Origin: Nitrospinales bacterium
GTDB taxonomy: Bacteria > Nitrospinota_A > UBA7883 > JACRGQ01
DNA length: 44,304 bases
NCBI GenBank assembly: GCA_023248535.1
Contig: JAHFEJ010000007.1
Coordinates: 18,105-62,408, forward strand
Direction: 5' to 3'
Numbering within the stretch: the first letter of the stretch is position 1; each line of letters starts with the position of its first letter. The translations under genes and the position numbers were made by a program. Shown in pieces: positions 8,233 through 29,386 of this stretch. Below the pieces are notes generated by a model that was not told the DNA's origin, made no database searches, and saw only the letters and a program-made list of their open reading frames with translations.

Positions 8233-9420
8233 TTACTCGGTGAACGTCACGTCGTCGGCGGAGGGGACGCCATCCGCCCCCAGCGAGGAAAGGCTGAATT
8301 GGTCCTGCCCCGGTTGATAGAGGTAGTCGCGTTTCCACGGGTCTTTCAGCGAACTATCGCTTATGATGCCGCTTCGGGTAAGTTCCAGGATGCTGCTGGG
8401 CATCTGCCCTTTTTGCAGGTAATAGATGCCGATCGCTTCCCGGATGCCGTCAAGGTCATTCCGCGCCCTCGATTCGGCGATGGAACCGCACAAGGCACGC
8501 CAGTTCGCCATCTGCAGCGGGTGCCAATAGGAAGCCCGGTGGAAAACCCCAAAGCCGAGCAGCAACAGCGCAAAGACGATGGCGACATACCCGCCGGTGG
8601 CGGATTGCGCCCGCGGCTTTTCAAACGCCAACACCTCGTTCGGCGTCATTTCCACGATCACCTTCTTGTTCAACAGGGAAAGAACGGCATTGGACGCGTC
8701 AAAGCTGGAAAGATCCGCCATGTTCAAAATAAGCTTAAGCTGGCGGGGACGGCCCATCACGGAAAGGATTTTCACCTCGTGATCGGTTATCTCCACGCCG
8801 CGCGCGGAAAGAATGGCGAATTCCATCGTATCGCGGAAATCGGGCGGTTCGCTTTCGTTTTTCGCGGCGCGCTTCGCCTTCATCTCCTCCTCGCTCAAAA
8901 TCGACCGGCGGATGAATCTGTCCGGTTTGGGCAGCTGCTTTTCGATCATGCCGAATTCATCGGCGATGCGGCATCCCTCCATCAGCAAAAAGTCGACATC
9001 CATCGGGTTAATGAGCTGGTTGGGGTACTCCACGCTTTTCATGGCGGTGAAAATATAGGTGCCCCGTTTATAGCGCAGAAGGTCGAATAGCGTATCGGTG
9101 ACTTGCCGCCGCAGCGCCGCGGAGGCGGATTCGGGCTGAATCACGTTTGCCAACGAAGGCCAGAAATGTTCCGGCGCACCGGCATATTGCTCCAGCGATT
9201 TCCAGACCTCCGGCGTGACCAGGCGCGCTGAACCGAGCATGTCGCGCAGGCGGGTAAACCAGCCGTTATCCCCGTACTGGGCATACACCACGTTCCCCCC
9301 CAGGAAAGAAACAAGGATTGTGCGGTTCTCCCCTTTTACTTCCAGCAAGCCGGTTTTTGTTTCCGCCTTGATAATGGGGAGGATGTTGGTAATGCTGAAA
9401 TCCTTTAAATTCCCCTGCAT
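8233..9420 (-). CDS. PATAN (DUF4388) protein with membrane helix and GspG-like periplasmic head
   Basis: A 395-residue protein joining parts not normally found together. Residues 1-70 match the PATAN/DUF4388 domain (GNLKDFSITNIL, TGLLEVKG). A second region, 95-265, resembles the helical extension of such proteins. Residues 277-294 form a single membrane helix (GYVAIVFALLLLGFGVF). The tail, about 318-395, resembles the head of the type II pseudopilin GspG: a helix (LDGIREAIGIYYLQKGQMPS), DPW at 360-362, a Tyr pair, then SLGADG at 379-384 and an acidic end, the calcium-site region of GspG. There is no pilin leader, so it should be anchored and not assembled. It is the last gene of the MglA/roadblock operon, one base after its neighbour, with GAGGAGGAAAT as ribosome site. 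Confidence 0.8.
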   Translation of the reverse strand: MQGNLKDFSITNILPIIKAETKTGLLEVKGENRTILVSFLGGNVVYAQYGDNGWFTRLRDMLGSARLVTPEVWKSLEQYAGAPEHFWPSLANVIQPESASAALRRQVTDTLFDLLRYKRGTYIFTAMKSVEYPNQLINPMDVDFLLMEGCRIADEFGMIEKQLPKPDRFIRRSILSEEEMKAKRAAKNESEPPDFRDTMEFAILSARGVEITDHEVKILSVMGRPRQLKLILNMADLSSFDASNAVLSLLNKKVIVEMTPNEVLAFEKPRAQSATGGYVAIVFALLLLGFGVFHRASYWHPLQMANWRALCGSIAESRARNDLDGIREAIGIYYLQKGQMPSSILELTRSGIISDSSLKDPWKRDYLYQPGQDQFSLSSLGADGVPSADDVTFTE

Positions 9421-9421
9421 C

Positions 9422-11296
9422 TCATTTCCTCCTCATCGAAAGCGGGACGGCCACCAGATAAAACAGCGCCATGGCTCCCAGCAACGCGGCGTAAACCGGC
9501 CACGGCGCGGGCCGGTATCCGGCCAACAGCAAAGCCCCCCACCCGATAACGGGCGCCCAAAACGACGCGGAGAGAACCAGTAACATGGCGCCCCCCGCAT
9601 AGGAGCCGTACCATACGCTTCCGAGGCCGGGCATGATGAAGTTGAGCATATTGGCCGTATCCCGGCGTCCGGTCTGATAGTTCAGAATCTGACGGACCTT
9701 GTTATCCTTCAGGCCGAATATGCCGCTCTTTTTAGGGGATCCCATCGCCACGCATTGATTGCATTTGACCACGCCTTTGACGGCTTTGGAGAACATCGGC
9801 ATAAAGGTGGCCCCGCACGATGGGCATATAATGTGAAGGCCGAACATCCCCCAGAAGGCGATGGCGGCGGCAAACGCGATAATAGCCCCGCCCGCCAGCA
9901 TGAAGTGTGCGTTGGCGGTGGTATCCCATAGAAAAAAGGCGGAGGCCTTTTTGGCCAATCCGGCCGCCGCTTCATCAGCCGATGTCTCCACCGAGGCCGG
10001 AAAATCCGACATCCCCAGCCGCACGCTCACCACCTTCGGGGCGAATTTATTTTCCTTCGCGGCAATCATGGCATTGGCGCGGGGGCCGTTCAGCCGCGCG
10101 ACCACATCCAGCTCGGCGTTCGATTCCGCCGTGCGAAACTGCTCCAGATAGGCCGCGCCAAGGTTGTAATGCCCTTCAAAGGAGGAAGGGGCCAGCCCCA
10201 GCGCGTTTTTGTACATGATCTCGGCATCGCGGAATTCGCCGCGGTTGAAATTCAGGTTTCCCATTTCCACCAGCGCCGGAATGTTTTTGGGATCAAGCTG
10301 GATGGCGCTCTTCAGGTACCCCTCCGCGGCGTCGTAGCGCGCAAGGCGGCGGTTCATCGCCCCTAGCATGAACATCAGGCGTGTATCGCCGGGGTGTTTT
10401 GCCAAAGCGGCTTCCAACTCCTTCATGTCGTCCGGCTCGAAACCGCCGGTGATAAACCGGTTGGCCGCCCCCGCGTCGCGCCCGGCAAGCAGGGCTATCC
10501 CCTTCCCCGCCGTCACGCCCATCAGCGGAAACGCCGCGAAAAAAACGAGAAACGCCATCAGCACGGCCCTTCCCTGCCACGTCAGATAACCGGCCAGCAA
10601 CAACGGCACGGCAAGTACCGCGGCAAACCAGCCCATCCCGGTGGCCAACGCCAGCAATAACAGCATCAACGCTATAGCGGCCGCTTTCGCGTCGGCTTCC
10701 ATCGGGAACAAACGCCGTATATCCCGTATCAGGGGTTGCCTGAACGCGGCGACGGTGGCGGCGATATACGCGGCGAAGGCCATGGTGACAGCAAACACCG
10801 CCAGCGCGATCAGGTTATAACCCAGAACACGCTTGGCCAGCGGATCGGCGAAGTATGATGTGGCGGCCCTCACCAATGGATTGAACCATCCGCCATACTC
10901 GGCGGTGGAAACGGCGAAATTGCGCTCGGCGAGAAATGCCCATGCCCGGGGATAATCCGGCGAAATATCCGCCGCCATCCGCGCGGCAACCGCCCCTTCG
11001 GCCGTCTTTCCTTCGCGCGTCAAGGTATAAGAACGGACAAGAAAATAATCCGAAACAAAATAGAGGTCTTGGGCGGAGAGCCGCCCTTTCCAATCATGTA
11101 TTGCCGCAAGCTTCTGCCCGGCGTCGGAGCCGTTGCCGGCAGTGACCGCCGCATCCAGTTGGCGCACGGCATCGGCCAGCTCGGGCAGGGAAGCGAGTCC
11201 TCCTTCGGTCACGGCGGTTACCGGTATCTGTGGGGCGGCGAACGCCAAGGTATGAACCACCGCCATGACCGCGATAAACAAGCCCAGCCGTCTCAT
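9422..11296 (-). CDS. multi-pass membrane TPR protein with CxxC zinc ribbon
   Basis: A 624-residue membrane protein of unassigned function. It starts with a signal-like segment (MRRLGLFIAVMAVVHTLAFA). Helices follow at about 157-185, 205-238 and 243-265. TPR-like repeats span about 284-400 (AIQLDPKNIPALVEMGNLNF, MYKNALGLAPSSFEGHYNLG). Another helix at about 465-488 leads straight into a four-Cys ribbon, CPSC (491-494) and CNQC (512-515), probably binding zinc. Two or three helices end the protein. The TPR block between helices suggests a scaffold. It is co-transcribed with the GTPase and roadblock genes, three bases after the preceding stop. Confidence 0.75.
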   Translation of the reverse strand: MRRLGLFIAVMAVVHTLAFAAPQIPVTAVTEGGLASLPELADAVRQLDAAVTAGNGSDAGQKLAAIHDWKGRLSAQDLYFVSDYFLVRSYTLTREGKTAEGAVAARMAADISPDYPRAWAFLAERNFAVSTAEYGGWFNPLVRAATSYFADPLAKRVLGYNLIALAVFAVTMAFAAYIAATVAAFRQPLIRDIRRLFPMEADAKAAAIALMLLLLALATGMGWFAAVLAVPLLLAGYLTWQGRAVLMAFLVFFAAFPLMGVTAGKGIALLAGRDAGAANRFITGGFEPDDMKELEAALAKHPGDTRLMFMLGAMNRRLARYDAAEGYLKSAIQLDPKNIPALVEMGNLNFNRGEFRDAEIMYKNALGLAPSSFEGHYNLGAAYLEQFRTAESNAELDVVARLNGPRANAMIAAKENKFAPKVVSVRLGMSDFPASVETSADEAAAGLAKKASAFFLWDTTANAHFMLAGGAIIAFAAAIAFWGMFGLHIICPSCGATFMPMFSKAVKGVVKCNQCVAMGSPKKSGIFGLKDNKVRQILNYQTGRRDTANMLNFIMPGLGSVWYGSYAGGAMLLVLSASFWAPVIGWGALLLAGYRPAPWPVYAALLGAMALFYLVAVPLSMRRK

Positions 11297-11299
11297 TTG

Positions 11300-11818
11300 T
11301 CAGTCCTCGAAAAGCTGGTCAAGTTTTTCCTGCAAAGAAACGTTGTACTCTTCGCCCAACGGCTCGGTATCATCCTTCGCTTTCATCGCCTGTTGGCGTT
11401 CCGCCACATCCAGCAGCTTTGCCACCTTATCACCCAGCTCTTTGAGGTACAGCGCCACCATCCCGGCGGTGGTCTTTTCATCAAACAGCACGACCAGCAT
11501 TGAACGGCGGCCCACGAGGATTACATTGATCTGTCCCTTGGCCCCTTTGTGCGACATGGTATTGAATTCCGTCTCGCCCAGCACCTTGGCCAGTTCGCGC
11601 GTGGCGGAGAAACTGCCAGCCACGAGGGCGGAAAGCGCCTCGGCGTTAACGCCTGCGGTGTCTCCCATCTGGGTCACGGCGTGCCCTTCCTTGTCGATGA
11701 AATAAATGCTCTTCGCCTTCGACAGGCGGAGGAAATCCTTTAGCAACGCATCGATCTGGTCGATGGTCTCCTTATAGAAGATCAGCCGCCGGGATCTTAA
11801 ATTCTCATCGGTTGTCAT
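11300..11818 (-). CDS. roadblock/LC7-domain protein (MglB-like)
   Basis: A 172-residue protein with a central roadblock/LC7 fold (about 35-135), seen in IYFIDKEGHAVTQMGD and INVILVGRRSMLVVLFDE. Roadblock proteins such as MglB dimerise and act as GTPase-activating partners of MglA. It directly follows the GTPase gene (two bases), which supports that pairing. Helices flank the fold on both sides; the C-terminal 35 residues are charged. Confidence 0.85.
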   Translation of the reverse strand: MTTDENLRSRRLIFYKETIDQIDALLKDFLRLSKAKSIYFIDKEGHAVTQMGDTAGVNAEALSALVAGSFSATRELAKVLGETEFNTMSHKGAKGQINVILVGRRSMLVVLFDEKTTAGMVALYLKELGDKVAKLLDVAERQQAMKAKDDTEPLGEEYNVSLQEKLDQLFED

Positions 11819-11820
11819 CG

Positions 11821-13038
11821 CTATAGTTTATCCTCAAATATTTCAATTTTCGCGTCTTTTCTCAAGACCGCGAAAAGGTCATCCAGCATTTTCTTTTTCT
11901 TCTTGTTTTTCAGTATCTGGGCGATCCGGTCCTGATGCTTTTCCATGCCGCCGGGAAACGCCTGCTGATGCGAATCGTAATAGGCGGCGGTTTCGGCGGG
12001 AGCAACGGCCAATTCCGCCGCCACGTCCCCGTATTTGCCCTTGAGCATCATGGATATGACGATATTTTTCACCGCCTCGTTTTTCACCGCGTCCATGGTG
12101 AGGTGGCGCTCGTCAAGCCATTGGTTGAATTTCTCCATCGATCCGAATTTCCGCCCGAACGACACCACCTGCGCCTCGATCTGCTTCTTGTCGAGGGCCA
12201 TGGCGCTTTTCTTGGCTTCCTGCATCAGCAGCATCTGATTGATAAGGCCGTTGAGTTGGGCCAACTCCTCCTCGCGCGAGAAGCGCTTGAAATCCTCCAC
12301 CTCGCCGGACGCGGTGAGCCGGTACTGCGTTTGGCAATAGTTCACAAAATAATTACGGGTCACCTTGCCGCCGTTCACCAGCGCCACCAGCGCTTCTTCC
12401 TTTTTGGGAGCCGCCGGGGCCGCGGCCGCCGCCGGGGATCCCGAAATTTCGCTCCCCTTGGAGTTGATATGATCCAGCACCAGCTTGGCAGCCACTTTGA
12501 GCGTTTGCATCACTCCGTCGCCCCGGGCCGCCACCGCCTCGGTCGTGACGGCCTTCGTCCAGTTAATATTCTCTTCCAGCCAGGGGATGTCCCCCGCATC
12601 GGGCAAATCCCGTTTGTTCCACTGGATGACCAGCGGAAAATTTTTCATGTCAATGCCGTACTCTTTGAGGCTCGTCTCAAGGTCCTTAAGCGCTTCGATA
12701 TTCTCTTCCAGCTTTTTCTTTTGCGAATCGGCCACGAACACCACGCCATCGGCCCCTTGCAACACCAGCTTGCGGGTGCTGGCATAGTAGACCTGCCCCG
12801 GCACGGTGTAGAGCTGGAATTTGGTGTTCATCCCCTTTACCTGCCCCAGATCAAGCGGCAAAAAGTCGAAAAAAAGCGTTCGATCCCCTTCCGTGGCGAT
12901 AGCGATAAGGTCCCCTTTGCTCTCCTTGGGGGCCTTTTGATGGATCACCTGGAGGTTGGTGGTCTTGCCGCTCATGCCTGGGCCGTAAAAAACGATCTTG
13001 CAGCTTATTTCCCGGCGGGCAAAATTTATTTGAACCAC
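11821..13038 (-). CDS. MglA-type GTPase fused to SurA/PpiC N-terminal-like domain
   Basis: A 405-residue protein, twice the length of MglA (about 195). Residues 1-195 are a Ras-like MglA GTPase: P-loop GPGMSGKTT (19-27), TVPGQ in place of DxxG (78-82) and NKRD (141-144). An Ala/Pro linker (200-214) leads to a helical domain (216-405) with the pattern of the SurA/PpiC N-terminal chaperone region: ALVNGGKVTRNYF, then LNGLINQMLLMQEAK, FGSMEKFNQWL, AYYDSHQQAF, and a closing helix-strand DDLFAVLRKDAKIEI. No parvulin domain and no signal peptide are present. GTG at 13038 is the start. MglA family GTPases set cell polarity with a roadblock partner; the added domain may bind an unfolded or envelope client (inference). 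Confidence 0.85.
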   Translation of the reverse strand: MVQINFARREISCKIVFYGPGMSGKTTNLQVIHQKAPKESKGDLIAIATEGDRTLFFDFLPLDLGQVKGMNTKFQLYTVPGQVYYASTRKLVLQGADGVVFVADSQKKKLEENIEALKDLETSLKEYGIDMKNFPLVIQWNKRDLPDAGDIPWLEENINWTKAVTTEAVAARGDGVMQTLKVAAKLVLDHINSKGSEISGSPAAAAAPAAPKKEEALVALVNGGKVTRNYFVNYCQTQYRLTASGEVEDFKRFSREEELAQLNGLINQMLLMQEAKKSAMALDKKQIEAQVVSFGRKFGSMEKFNQWLDERHLTMDAVKNEAVKNIVISMMLKGKYGDVAAELAVAPAETAAYYDSHQQAFPGGMEKHQDRIAQILKNKKKKKMLDDLFAVLRKDAKIEIFEDKL

Positions 13039-13047
13039 ACGGGGATT

Positions 13048-13407
13048 CTACCCCAAATTGGCGTGTTTTTTTATTTCGTTTGCGGTTTGGAATATCTCGG
13101 CGTTAATGGCGGCCGCATCGGCCCCGCCGGACAACACCGCCACAAAGAGGCCCCTGCCCAGATCGCTGATAACCAGCGAGCCATTTTGGGAAGTCATCTG
13201 GAAGCGGTTCGCGCGGCCATACTTGAAATCCTCCACGCAGTTCCCCACCGCCAGATGGACCGATGAAACGAGCGCGGCCATTTCATGGGAATTAAACCTC
13301 TCCGCAAGCGCCGACTCCACCACAATGCCGTCGTGCCCGCAGATAAGCGCGCCCTCCACCCCTTCGTTACGGTTGAATTTTTCAAGGATCGCCTTAAGCC
13401 GGCTCAT
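13048..13407 (-). CDS. small roadblock/LC7-domain protein
   Basis: A 119-residue stand-alone roadblock protein (MSRLKAILEKFNRNEGVEGA, then a five-strand core ending in LFVAVLSGG). The start is set at 13407 because its ATG overlaps the TGA of the upstream gene (ATGA), a sign of translational coupling; a much longer open frame upstream is merely the shadow of that gene. The fold typically forms dimers that bind small GTPases. It is followed nine bases later by the MglA-type GTPase. Confidence 0.85.
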   Translation of the reverse strand: MSRLKAILEKFNRNEGVEGALICGHDGIVVESALAERFNSHEMAALVSSVHLAVGNCVEDFKYGRANRFQMTSQNGSLVISDLGRGLFVAVLSGGADAAAINAEIFQTANEIKKHANLG

Positions 13408-14279
13408 TCCGCCAATGCCTCCACATACCGGTTGATGCGAGTTTCCACAACCTTGAGGTCGGCATCGGTATCCAGCTCCAGCGCCAGCAAACCGTAGAAC
13501 ACGTTTACGATAATGATGTTGCCGGCGGGAGTGAGCAGTGTCCCGCGCTGCAGGGTTCCCAGCCCCGACTTCCGCATGCAAAGCCGCGAGGCCGAGTAGA
13601 TGTTTGACACGTTCGTGGCGAGGTTCGGAAGGCCGCGGGAATCCCCTTTCAACACGCTTTTGATTTCAACCCCCGCGTGGTCGATCAGGTGGATGCCCCG
13701 CACCCCCTCAAGCTTGGCGAAGATGGAAAACCGCGTAATGAGATTTTCATACTCCCCCTCGCTTCCCCCCTGCAACCCCTCGATGCTCTCTTTGGCTATC
13801 GCCTCCTCGCCGAACTCTTCGGTATCTGCCGCCGCGGGCGCGGTTTCCTTTTCGTCCGGGACGGCGGCGGATTTGGCCTGAGTCTTCATCTTCTGAACCG
13901 CGGTTCTCAATTCCAGCGCGCGCGGGTCGGAAGGGCTCATTTTCAGGATGGCGGCCAGCTTTTCCTCGGCGCGGATCCATGCCCGCCCCTTGTAGTAAAT
14001 GCGGGCGGCCAGAAGGTTCGCCATGTAGTGGCGCGGATTTACCTTGAGAATCTTTTCAAAACAGACCAGCGCCGCTTTGAGATGTTCCGGCTTTTTCGTC
14101 TGGTTGAAGCAATCGATCCGCACCTCGCCGTAAATGAACAGGATGTCCATTGAATCGGGAAACGCCTGCAATCCCTTGGCGCACGCTTCCATCGCCCCCT
14201 TCAGGTCGGCCTCTTTACGGCGTCCCCTGATAGCCGCAACCCATTCCGCCGGGCTAGCCAGCGCTTTTTCCCCAACCAT
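13404..14279 (-). CDS. TPR-roadblock protein
   Basis: A 291-residue protein with TPR-like helical repeats at about 24-125 (FEKILKVNPRHYMANLLAARIYY), an acidic, low-complexity linker (135-172) and a C-terminal roadblock/LC7 domain (176-291; IHLIDHAGVEIKS, LLTPAGNIIIVNVFYGLLAL). It is the first gene of the minus-strand operon that continues through the small roadblock, GTPase, MglB-like, TPR-membrane and PATAN genes. AAGGAGACGC precedes the ATG. The TPRs offer a protein-binding surface attached to the GTPase-regulating fold. Confidence 0.85.
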   Translation of the reverse strand: MVGEKALASPAEWVAAIRGRRKEADLKGAMEACAKGLQAFPDSMDILFIYGEVRIDCFNQTKKPEHLKAALVCFEKILKVNPRHYMANLLAARIYYKGRAWIRAEEKLAAILKMSPSDPRALELRTAVQKMKTQAKSAAVPDEKETAPAAADTEEFGEEAIAKESIEGLQGGSEGEYENLITRFSIFAKLEGVRGIHLIDHAGVEIKSVLKGDSRGLPNLATNVSNIYSASRLCMRKSGLGTLQRGTLLTPAGNIIIVNVFYGLLALELDTDADLKVVETRINRYVEALAE

Positions 14280-14339: not shown

Positions 14340-14378
14340 TAGTTAAGTCTATTTGTATTTATAGGGGAGAGTCAAACC

Positions 14379-15758
14379 GTGTCCACCGTATTGGAATTTA
14401 CCAACATAGGGCGCTACCGGATTATTGAGAAGCTGGGGCAAGGCGCCATGGGGGTGGTTTACCTCGGCCTGGACGAAATGATTGACCGCAAAGTCGCCAT
14501 AAAAATGCTCCGGCTGGACAAAATTAAATCGGATACCGAGCGCAAAAAGGCCTATGACCTGATATTCCAGGAAGCCCGCATCATCGGCAAACTCGCCCAC
14601 AGCCACATTACCGCCATCTATGACATGGGAGTACAGGACAACAGCCCCTACCTGGTGATGGAATTCGTGGAGGGGAAGGACATCGCCTCCGCCATCAAAA
14701 ACCAAACGCCGATGAGCATGTCCGAAAAACTCAGGCTGGTGGCGATGGCGGCGCGCGCGCTGCACTACGCCCACCAGCGCGGCATTCTGCACCGCGACAT
14801 AAAACCGGCCAACATCATGATCCTGCCCAACAACGCGCCGAAGATCATGGATTTCGGCATTTCCCGCCTGAAAGACGCCGCCGCCGAAGCCTGGGGCGCG
14901 GGCGCGGGGGAGGAAGAAGGGATCATCCTGGGCACACCCAACTACATGTCGCCCGAACAGATACGGGGAAAGGAGCTGGATCAGCGCAGCGACCTTTTCT
15001 CGCTCGCCATCCTCACCTATGAATGGCTCGCCGGCCGCAAACCGTTCACGGGGCCGGATCTCAAGGATCTGCTGAAATCGATTTTGAAAGGAACACCCGA
15101 CCCGCTGGCAAAGGCCGTCAACGGGGCCGATAACGACCTGGACGCCATCATCTACAAAGCGCTGGAGAAGGAGCGGGAAAACCGCTACCGCACCACCGAG
15201 GATTTCTCGGAAGCGATCGAGCTTTACCTGAACAAGCTGGAAATGAAAAACAGCGCGCAATCAACGGCGATTTTCCCCTACGACAAGAAAAAGGTGGTGG
15301 ATCAGCTGCGGAAAAATTATTTCTTTTTCGCCGATTTTTGCGATGAAGAGCTTTTTTCCATATTCAAAATGAGCGGGAAGGAGCGGTACGGCACCGGCGA
15401 AGCAATCGTACAGGAGGGAACTTCCGGCACCAAAATGTACATCATCGTCAGCGGCATGGTGAAAGTGGTGAAAGACGTCAACGGCAAGGAGATCGAGTTC
15501 AAGCGGCTGGGCGAAGGGGACTGCTTCGGCGAACTGTCCATTATCGACAAGATGCCCCGCTCCGCTTCAGTGGTGGCGGTGGAACCGACGGTGGTCATCG
15601 CCATCAACGAGGTGGTGCTGCGCACCTCCGAACCGGCGCTCTGCATGAAGCTGTACAAGAACCTCGCGGCGATCATCTCGGAAAAACTGCGGTGGAGCGA
15701 TGCGCGGGTGCTTGACCTCCTCACCAACCAGCCCGAAGGCACCACCCGGAAGATTTAA
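14379..15758 (+). CDS. Ser/Thr protein kinase with C-terminal cyclic-nucleotide-binding domain
   Basis: A 459-residue soluble kinase. The Hanks-type domain (about 13-285) has the Gly loop GQGAMG (20-25), VAIK (Lys42), HRDIKPAN (138-145), DFG (158-160) and GTPNYMSPEQ (185-194), so all catalytic residues are present. The C-terminal CNB domain (about 313-435) has a phosphate-binding cassette, FGELSIIDKMPRSASV (383-398), with the Glu and Arg that contact cyclic nucleotide. There is no membrane helix, unlike most bacterial kinases of this family. GTG at 14379 follows GGGGAGAG. Divergent from the roadblock/GTPase operon, it may phosphorylate members of it in response to cAMP or cGMP (inference). 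Confidence 0.92.
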   Translation: MSTVLEFTNIGRYRIIEKLGQGAMGVVYLGLDEMIDRKVAIKMLRLDKIKSDTERKKAYDLIFQEARIIGKLAHSHITAIYDMGVQDNSPYLVMEFVEGKDIASAIKNQTPMSMSEKLRLVAMAARALHYAHQRGILHRDIKPANIMILPNNAPKIMDFGISRLKDAAAEAWGAGAGEEEGIILGTPNYMSPEQIRGKELDQRSDLFSLAILTYEWLAGRKPFTGPDLKDLLKSILKGTPDPLAKAVNGADNDLDAIIYKALEKERENRYRTTEDFSEAIELYLNKLEMKNSAQSTAIFPYDKKKVVDQLRKNYFFFADFCDEELFSIFKMSGKERYGTGEAIVQEGTSGTKMYIIVSGMVKVVKDVNGKEIEFKRLGEGDCFGELSIIDKMPRSASVVAVEPTVVIAINEVVLRTSEPALCMKLYKNLAAIISEKLRWSDARVLDLLTNQPEGTTRKI

Positions 15759-27223: not shown

Positions 27224-29386
27224 GTGCGGCGTTCGCGCAATTGGATGCCGGCGGCGATAGCCGCTGCAATAACCTTGCTGTCACCCCATGGCGCGCGGGG
27301 GGAGAATCTTTCCCTGTCCGGCGCGCAATCCGCCCCCCCCGTCACCCTGCAACAGGCCGCCCCCCTTCCGGCCCCGCCCGCGGGGGCACCGTCCGGCATT
27401 TCACACCAAAAGATCGAACGGGAAAGCGGCGCTGCCATTACTCCCGCATCCGGCACGCGAAAACCCGCTGAGAACGGGCAATCCATGGCCCTCAACTTTG
27501 AATCGGCCCCCATACGCGAAGTGATCAAAAACATCTGCGAGCTGCTCAACATGAACTACATCATCGAGCAGGACATCAAGGGATTTGTCACCATCCGCAC
27601 GCTCAACAAAATACCGGTCGCCAGCGCGCTCGACCTTTTGGACCAGCTGCTGATCCTCAACGGAATCACCCGCGTGAAAATCGGCAACTACTGGCGGTTC
27701 CTTCCCGCCGCCACCGCCATCAAAGAGCCGTTGCAGGTTTATAAGGATCCCGCCCCCAACGAATTCGCCGCGCGCGACCGCTACGCCATCCAGATACTCA
27801 CCTTCAACTACGTGGGGGCCGACCAAATACTTGAGCTTATAAAACCATTCCTCTCCAAGGACGCGTCCGCCACGGTGATCCAACGGCAGAATATGCTGCT
27901 GGTGGTCGAGCGCGGCACCAAGCTGCCGGAAATCGAAAGCCTTTCACGCGCCATCGATGTCGACACGCTGGACTCCATGCAGGTGAAACTCTTTGACCTG
28001 AAAAACGCCGGCGCCGGTGAAGTGGCCCAGGAATTGACCGCCGTCTACGCCAGCATGGGCTATGTAAAACCCCCTCCCGGCCAAGGTATCGTGTTCCTGC
28101 CGCTTGACCGGCTCAACAGCATTCTGATGGTGAATCCCTTTCCCAACCTCTATCCCGGCATCAAGGAGTGGCTGGAAAAACTCGACACCGGCTCCATAGG
28201 AAGTTCCGAGGTGACCACCCACATTTACCATGTGCAGCACGGCGACGCGGAAAACCTCGCCGGCATCCTGCGCCAGCTTTACGTGGAAGACAAAAAGCAG
28301 AAGGGGGCACAGCCCGCCACGGCGACAGCAGCCGCGGCGGCCGGCATGGCCATGGCCGGAGCGGCCATGGTGGAAGGACCGGTATTGATACTGCATCACC
28401 CGGACACAAACTCAATCATCATCCGCACGGCCGAGCGCAATTTCCAGATCATCTCGGAAACCCTGAAGCGGCTCGATCAGATGCCGCAGCAGGTTCTGAT
28501 AGAAGTGCTCATCGCCGAAATCCAGCTTACCGACAACCTTGAGTTCGGCATTGAATGGGCCCTGAATTCCTCCGGCGGCGGCACCGACGTAACAACCGCC
28601 AACAATCTCGGCGGACTCTCCCCAGCGGGGGCCACCAGCGTCGCGGCGAATCTGGGAAACACCGCGTTCAATCCGGTGGGCAACGCGCAAGGGCTGTCGG
28701 TTTTCGCGCGGAACAGCACGAACGTAATGGGGCTTCTTCACTCGCTGGCCGCCAAATCGAAACTCGACATCAAGGCCAGCCCGATCCTGATGACCTCCAA
28801 CAACAAAGCCGCCTCCATCGATATCACCAACGAAGTGCCGATCTCCACCATCACCACCACGCAAACCGGGGCCACCGCCCAGAACATCCAGTACCGCTCG
28901 GTCGGCATCCGGCTTTCCGTCACGCCAAAGATAAACGAGCAAAACCTCGTCTCGCTTGCGGTGGATCAGGAGATAAGCCAGATCGACGATGGCCGCAAGG
29001 CGGAATTCAAAGCGCTGGGGATATCCGCCATGCCGCTGCTCCGCCGCCAGGCAAAAAGCAGCATCGTGGTGAAAGACCGCGAAACGCTCATCCTGGGCGG
29101 CATGATCAGCGAAACGAAGGGCGGGGGTACGTCGGGCATTCCGTGGCTTACCGATATCCCCTTTCTCGGCTGGCTCTTCGGAACCAACAGCAGAACAAAC
29201 AATAAAACGGAACTGCTGATCCTCTTAACCCCGCGCGTGGTCGGCTCGGAAGAAGAGGCGAAAGCGATCACCGAACGGTACAAAGAACAGATCAAAGACC
29301 TGCAGCTTTCAACCAAAACCGGCAAAACCGAAGCCACCGCCCCCGAAGCCCCCCTCGCCCCCGGCGAAAAAGTGCTGGCCAAATAA
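27224..29386 (+). CDS. gspD: type II secretion-type secretin (GspD)
   Basis: A 720-residue outer-membrane secretin. A signal peptide covers about 1-26 (cleaved near ARG-EN). A Pro-rich stretch (35-85) leads to N0 (about 88-160; NFESAPIREVIKNICELLNM), three N1-type repeats (about 180-430) and the secretin domain (about 430-680; VLIEVLIAEIQL, VPISTITTTQTG, LILGGMISE, PFLGWLFG). An Ala/Gly insertion (about 365-385) lies in the third N repeat. GTG 27224 follows AGGGGG. No other type II genes are adjacent. A pilotin-binding S domain is not evident in the charged tail. Confidence 0.9.
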   Translation: MRRSRNWMPAAIAAAITLLSPHGARGENLSLSGAQSAPPVTLQQAAPLPAPPAGAPSGISHQKIERESGAAITPASGTRKPAENGQSMALNFESAPIREVIKNICELLNMNYIIEQDIKGFVTIRTLNKIPVASALDLLDQLLILNGITRVKIGNYWRFLPAATAIKEPLQVYKDPAPNEFAARDRYAIQILTFNYVGADQILELIKPFLSKDASATVIQRQNMLLVVERGTKLPEIESLSRAIDVDTLDSMQVKLFDLKNAGAGEVAQELTAVYASMGYVKPPPGQGIVFLPLDRLNSILMVNPFPNLYPGIKEWLEKLDTGSIGSSEVTTHIYHVQHGDAENLAGILRQLYVEDKKQKGAQPATATAAAAAGMAMAGAAMVEGPVLILHHPDTNSIIIRTAERNFQIISETLKRLDQMPQQVLIEVLIAEIQLTDNLEFGIEWALNSSGGGTDVTTANNLGGLSPAGATSVAANLGNTAFNPVGNAQGLSVFARNSTNVMGLLHSLAAKSKLDIKASPILMTSNNKAASIDITNEVPISTITTTQTGATAQNIQYRSVGIRLSVTPKINEQNLVSLAVDQEISQIDDGRKAEFKALGISAMPLLRRQAKSSIVVKDRETLILGGMISETKGGGTSGIPWLTDIPFLGWLFGTNSRTNNKTELLILLTPRVVGSEEEAKAITERYKEQIKDLQLSTKTGKTEATAPEAPLAPGEKVLAK

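Follow-up and report, generated by a model that had tools for sequence, protein, structure and literature searches.

MglA-type GTPases are widespread. To our knowledge, their outputs are mostly unknown beyond a few well-studied bacteria. In Myxococcus, MglA stimulates formation of type IV pili (T4P; PMC7519303). Genes encoding PATAN proteins occur near mglA and mglB (PMC4316618) and, according to work cited in PMC7690835, PixE, a PATAN regulator, reportedly binds PilB1, an ATPase of the pilus. PATAN proteins with ties to MglA and to pilus machinery are already known.

Here we describe a protein, named PATAN-G, in which a PATAN domain is joined by a membrane helix to a head resembling GspG, the major pseudopilin of type II secretion systems (T2SS). 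The gene lies in a 44,304-nucleotide stretch of Nitrospinales DNA (the window). The simplest reading suggested by our data is that PATAN-G serves an MglA-type switch as a membrane adaptor. More fully, PATAN-G may be a single-pass inner-membrane adaptor that connects such a switch, via its head, to a T2SS or T4P machine. We place the probability of this reading at roughly 0.4. In a literature search, no title or abstract described a PATAN-membrane-GspG protein. The layout, and its constant pairing with a TPR membrane protein (TPRm), appear new.

Results

PATAN-G joins a PATAN domain to a GspG-like head

The features of the PATAN-G gene are as follows.

8233..9420, minus strand: PATAN-TM-GspG-head protein (PATAN-G, P0001), 395 aa; DUF4388 at residues 2-155 and T2SSG at residues 317-390 by Pfam
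8956..9417, minus strand: DUF4388/PATAN domain, residues 2-155; PF14332, E 4.6e-21; predicted to be cytoplasmic
8542..8598, minus strand: single transmembrane helix, residues 275-293, by hydropathy; the sole membrane helix of PATAN-G
8251..8472, minus strand: GspG-like head, residues 317-390; PF08334 (T2SSG), E 1.3e-8, 35.2 bits (cut-off 21)

The PATAN domain scored 75.5 bits with PF14332, for which the Pfam gathering cut-off is 25, and DUF4388 was matched in all 18 of the aligned family members. Hydropathy placed a membrane segment at the same position in all 34 members scanned. An earlier note on this DNA had described a PATAN domain, one internal membrane helix and a GspG-like head. The Pfam domains and hydropathy confirm that layout, which is kept across the host's class and in many other families.

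The family fits an N-in/C-out topology. When the 20 residues on each side of the helix were summed for the 34 members, 152 Lys/Arg were found before the helix and 83 after it. By the positive-inside rule, these counts favour a PATAN domain inside and a head outside. The flanks of the window protein, taken alone, are neutral (2 before and 2 after). The prepilin motif is absent from PATAN-G and its 33 relatives, and the host genome's own GspG carries it as GFTLVE. Thus, as had been proposed, PATAN-G lacks a prepilin leader and would not be processable as a pilin.

Several comparisons bear on the nature of the head. PATAN-G was also recovered by a whole-genome search with the T2SSG family PF08334. 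A profile of 13 heads from the class matched the GspG profile with a probability of 97.7% (E 2e-12, hhalign). When a profile of 14 heads was compared with PDB sequences, eight GspG sequences were returned (E 9.6e-8 to 3.2e-4) and, apart from GspG, nothing matched below E 0.5. These 14 aligned heads all have G351, D360-P361-W362, Y366, S379, G381 and D383, as well as an Asp that aligns with D389. Individually, 11 of 18 family members matched T2SSG; in many relatives, the head has diverged too far for a match. The earlier note had put the GspG-like C-terminus at 80 residues, with DPW and SLGADG elements. Both elements are present, at residues 360-362 and 379-384, and the length is better given as about 75-80 residues. 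AlphaFold models of full PATAN-G and of residues 262-395, built with three close sequences only, had mean pLDDT values of 52.5 and 37.1, too low for use. With the GspG equivalog model, TIGR01710, PATAN-G scored 23.6 bits, under the cut-off of 88.85. This makes it a GspG relative, not a GspG itself. Taken together, the profile comparisons indicate that the PATAN-G head is homologous to GspG.

PATAN-G is encoded with an MglA-type GTPase

PATAN-G is the last gene of a six-gene operon in which neighbouring genes are separated, or overlap, by a few bases. In order of transcription, the other five genes are as follows.

13404..14279, minus strand: TPR protein, first operon gene; TPR_14, 5.4e-7, and a weak C-terminal roadblock match (Robl_LC7, 0.038)
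13048..13407, minus strand: second roadblock-like protein, 119 aa; start MSRLK at 13407; roadblock assigned by eye
11821..13038, minus strand: MglA-type GTPase with a SurA_N-like C-terminal domain; Arf, 9.2e-7; SurA_N_3, 3.1e-9
11300..11818, minus strand: MglB-like roadblock protein; PF03259, 1.7e-11; NF052242 (MglB), 6.8e-18, under the cut-off
9422..11296, minus strand: TPRm, TPR membrane protein; TPR matches in Pfam, several membrane helices and a ribbon with two CxxC motifs

The same order was found in the class loci read: TPR protein, roadblock-like protein, MglA-SurA_N-like protein, MglB, TPRm and PATAN-G. The frame of the 119-aa protein is conserved across all class loci. Motifs of an MglA-type GTPase could be read in the third gene product (P-loop GPGMSGKT, TVPGQ and NKRD). 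The fusion of this GTPase to a SurA_N-like domain was found in 17 of 23 class genomes; SurA goes unmentioned in the survey PMC4316618. The gene immediately upstream of PATAN-G encodes TPRm in 12/12 class loci and 22/22 loci outside the class. We favour a signalling adaptor because the constant partner is TPRm and, within the class, the MglA/MglB GTPase set.

Divergent from the operon is a gene for a PknB-like Ser/Thr kinase (14379-15758, plus strand) whose C-terminal part matches CRP-type cyclic-nucleotide regulators. An ORF at 14349-15260 on the minus strand was rejected as an operon gene, being antisense to the kinase gene. The frame antisense to the kinase gene also gives matches upstream in several relatives.

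PATAN-G co-occurs with MglA and GspG

Of 388 genomes sampled, 36, belonging to 25 families, carry PATAN-G. Full-length members are widespread outside the class. Within the class (Nitrospinota-like), 16 of 23 genomes had a strong match, two of these being cut by contig ends. No relative was present in the viral contigs searched. The MglA-SurA fusion and PATAN-G were both present or both absent in 22 of the 23 class genomes; in the sole exception, G020, some 2 kb separate the fusion gene from the end of a contig.

MglA was present in all 36 carriers and in 110 of 352 other genomes (31%; p 2.5e-17, uncorrected for relatedness). GspG was present in 31 of the 36 carriers and in 118/352 others (34%), a strong GspG being missing from five carriers. 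Among the 388 genomes, none of the 84 that were GspG-positive and MglA-negative carried PATAN-G. All of these co-occurrence tests are confounded by phylogeny, relatedness being handled to family level at most. A PilT-family ATPase was found in 36/36 carriers and in 311 of the 388 genomes overall.

When genomes were collapsed to families, PATAN-G went with GspG among those bearing MglA (odds ratio 7, p 2e-4). This association argues against the main rival to the adaptor reading, that the head is a borrowed fold binding only TPRm or a periplasmic ligand. The TPRm/PATAN-G pair would then serve the MglA set as a signalling receptor, making no contact with T2SS or T4P. Several distant groups retain the DPW element and the loop motif, which also speaks against this rival. 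Within the class, we found no dependence on T2SS, since GspG occurs whether or not a genome carries PATAN-G, and T4P ATPases, present almost throughout, do not separate carriers from non-carriers. Class genomes without the operon retain T2SS genes and mostly T4P genes; the machines therefore need no operon. That retention favours a head confined to TPRm or a periplasmic ligand, as does the standing of TPRm as the one constant neighbour. So does the poor conservation of head sequence and loop in distant members. We regard this rival as a real, if doubtful, possibility.

The calcium-loop-like stretch is not constant

In GspG, calcium is bound through the motif G-x-D-G-x-x-[GN]-[TN]-x-D-D (PMC3396595). 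In EHEC GspG (3G20), the ion is bound within PGPDGVPNTEDD by three side chains (D117, T122 and D125) and by two oxygens of the main chain (PMC3396595). The corresponding part of PATAN-G is as follows.

8251..8283, minus strand: calcium-loop-like stretch LGADGVPSADD, residues 380-390; motif from PMC3396595

On alignment, D383 of PATAN-G corresponds to D117 of GspG, and D389 or D390 to D125, but the PATAN-G loop (GADGVPSADD) falls one residue short of the motif and has Ala in place of the Thr ligand. In other class members the loop reads GPDxxxxTD[DN]. The motif is complete, or nearly so, in several distant relatives (GPDGKEGTEDDI and GADGVEGTSDDI are examples), and many others end ahead of the loop. 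Calcium binding by the PATAN-G head is possible. Judged from these alignments, the loop is no constant feature of the family.

It had been proposed that the head could bind a pseudopilus, or serve as a fixed decoy or calcium sensor. A pseudopilin decoy or sensor, acting on the pseudopilus, would accord with a GspG-like head that has no processing site. The invariance of D383, and an acidic partner for it that is kept within the class, would suit a sensor. The shortened loop, the Ala in place of Thr and the loss of the loop from many members do not, and the operon points instead to GTPase signalling. Hence, we consider such a role improbable.

Secretion genes and other neighbours

Elsewhere in the window is one secretin gene.

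27224-29386, plus strand: GspD-type secretin; TIGR02517, 403 bits, cut-off 351

This gene is near ftsY-like and yidC-like genes and apart from the main T2SS genes. The earlier note had pointed to a solitary GspD 18 kb from PATAN-G. The gene is of GspD type and locally solitary, but it is one of four secretins in the genome. One of the three others is on contig C108, which also bears a GspE/PilB-family ATPase, and a pseudopilin cluster led by GspG is on contig C122. Because a T2SS gene set is present elsewhere in the genome, the 18 kb distance is no evidence of a functional link. The window also encodes a FapA beta-solenoid protein (PF03961; 24656-25897, minus strand) that has no NCBIfam match.

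Outside the class, the TPRm/PATAN-G pair is often beside mazG, phoH, 7TM-HD, corC and lnt (L048, L050, L098-L100, L102, L104), and phoH and a 7TM-HD gene often come after it. A general envelope-stress or nucleotide-signalling module is very unlikely: PhoH and/or 7TM-HD adjoin the pair in about 14 of the 22 outside loci, but such neighbours are absent from the window's class and from about eight outside loci.

Discussion

We favour PATAN-G as the membrane adaptor of an MglA-type switch. The PATAN part would be cytoplasmic and used by the switch, either directly or via roadblock proteins. The head would be periplasmic, held by TPRm, and would dock where pseudopilins or pilins are assembled. There it could be an anchor or gate, letting the GTPase place or time the T2SS or T4P machine, and not a filament subunit; we suggest this since the head, tethered to a cytoplasmic mass, is neither cleavable nor polymerisable. 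Its target is probably the T2SS or the T4P, by a mechanism that we infer; this is the most likely yet least proven step.

Support for the adaptor comes from the homology of the head to GspG, the kept operon order, the co-occurrence with MglA and GspG, and the PATAN literature. It is weakened by the operon-less genomes that keep their machines, the five carriers without a strong GspG, the diverged heads and the loci outside the class, where the pair often adjoins phoH/pgpH-like and not mgl genes. A stronger proposal is that PATAN-G belongs to a transmembrane coupler not described before, through which a Ras-like GTPase module in the cytoplasm would control T2SS (or pili) by way of a membrane-locked periplasmic pilin mimic. 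This we think rather unlikely.

If the adaptor reading is true, an MglA-type switch would have a physical path to secretion or pilus machinery, and the cytoplasm would have a means of keeping a non-polymerising pilin mimic where assembly takes place. The TPRm/PATAN-G pair is widespread enough for tests in cultured relatives.

Three known systems are closest. Like GspG/PulG (PF08334, TIGR01710), PATAN-G has a membrane helix preceding a homologous head, a DPW element and a calcium-loop-like stretch. Unlike GspG/PulG, it has neither a prepilin leader (G|F) nor E5, and it carries a PATAN domain on the opposite side of the helix. Its head is also shorter, without the long insertion ahead of the DPW element. 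As in the MglA/MglB polarity module of Myxococcus, an MglA-type GTPase accompanies an MglB-like roadblock protein, here in a single operon. Conversely, the GTPase described here bears a SurA_N-like domain, and the operon adds extra roadblock-like proteins, TPRm and PATAN-G. Finally, the PATAN proteins encoded near mglA/mglB (PMC4316618) and the PATAN-CheY regulators PixE/PixG (PMC7690835) share with PATAN-G the PATAN domain and a link to MglA and pilus control. They differ in that the PATAN domain of PATAN-G has no receiver domain beside it and is joined, via a membrane helix, to a pilin-like head.
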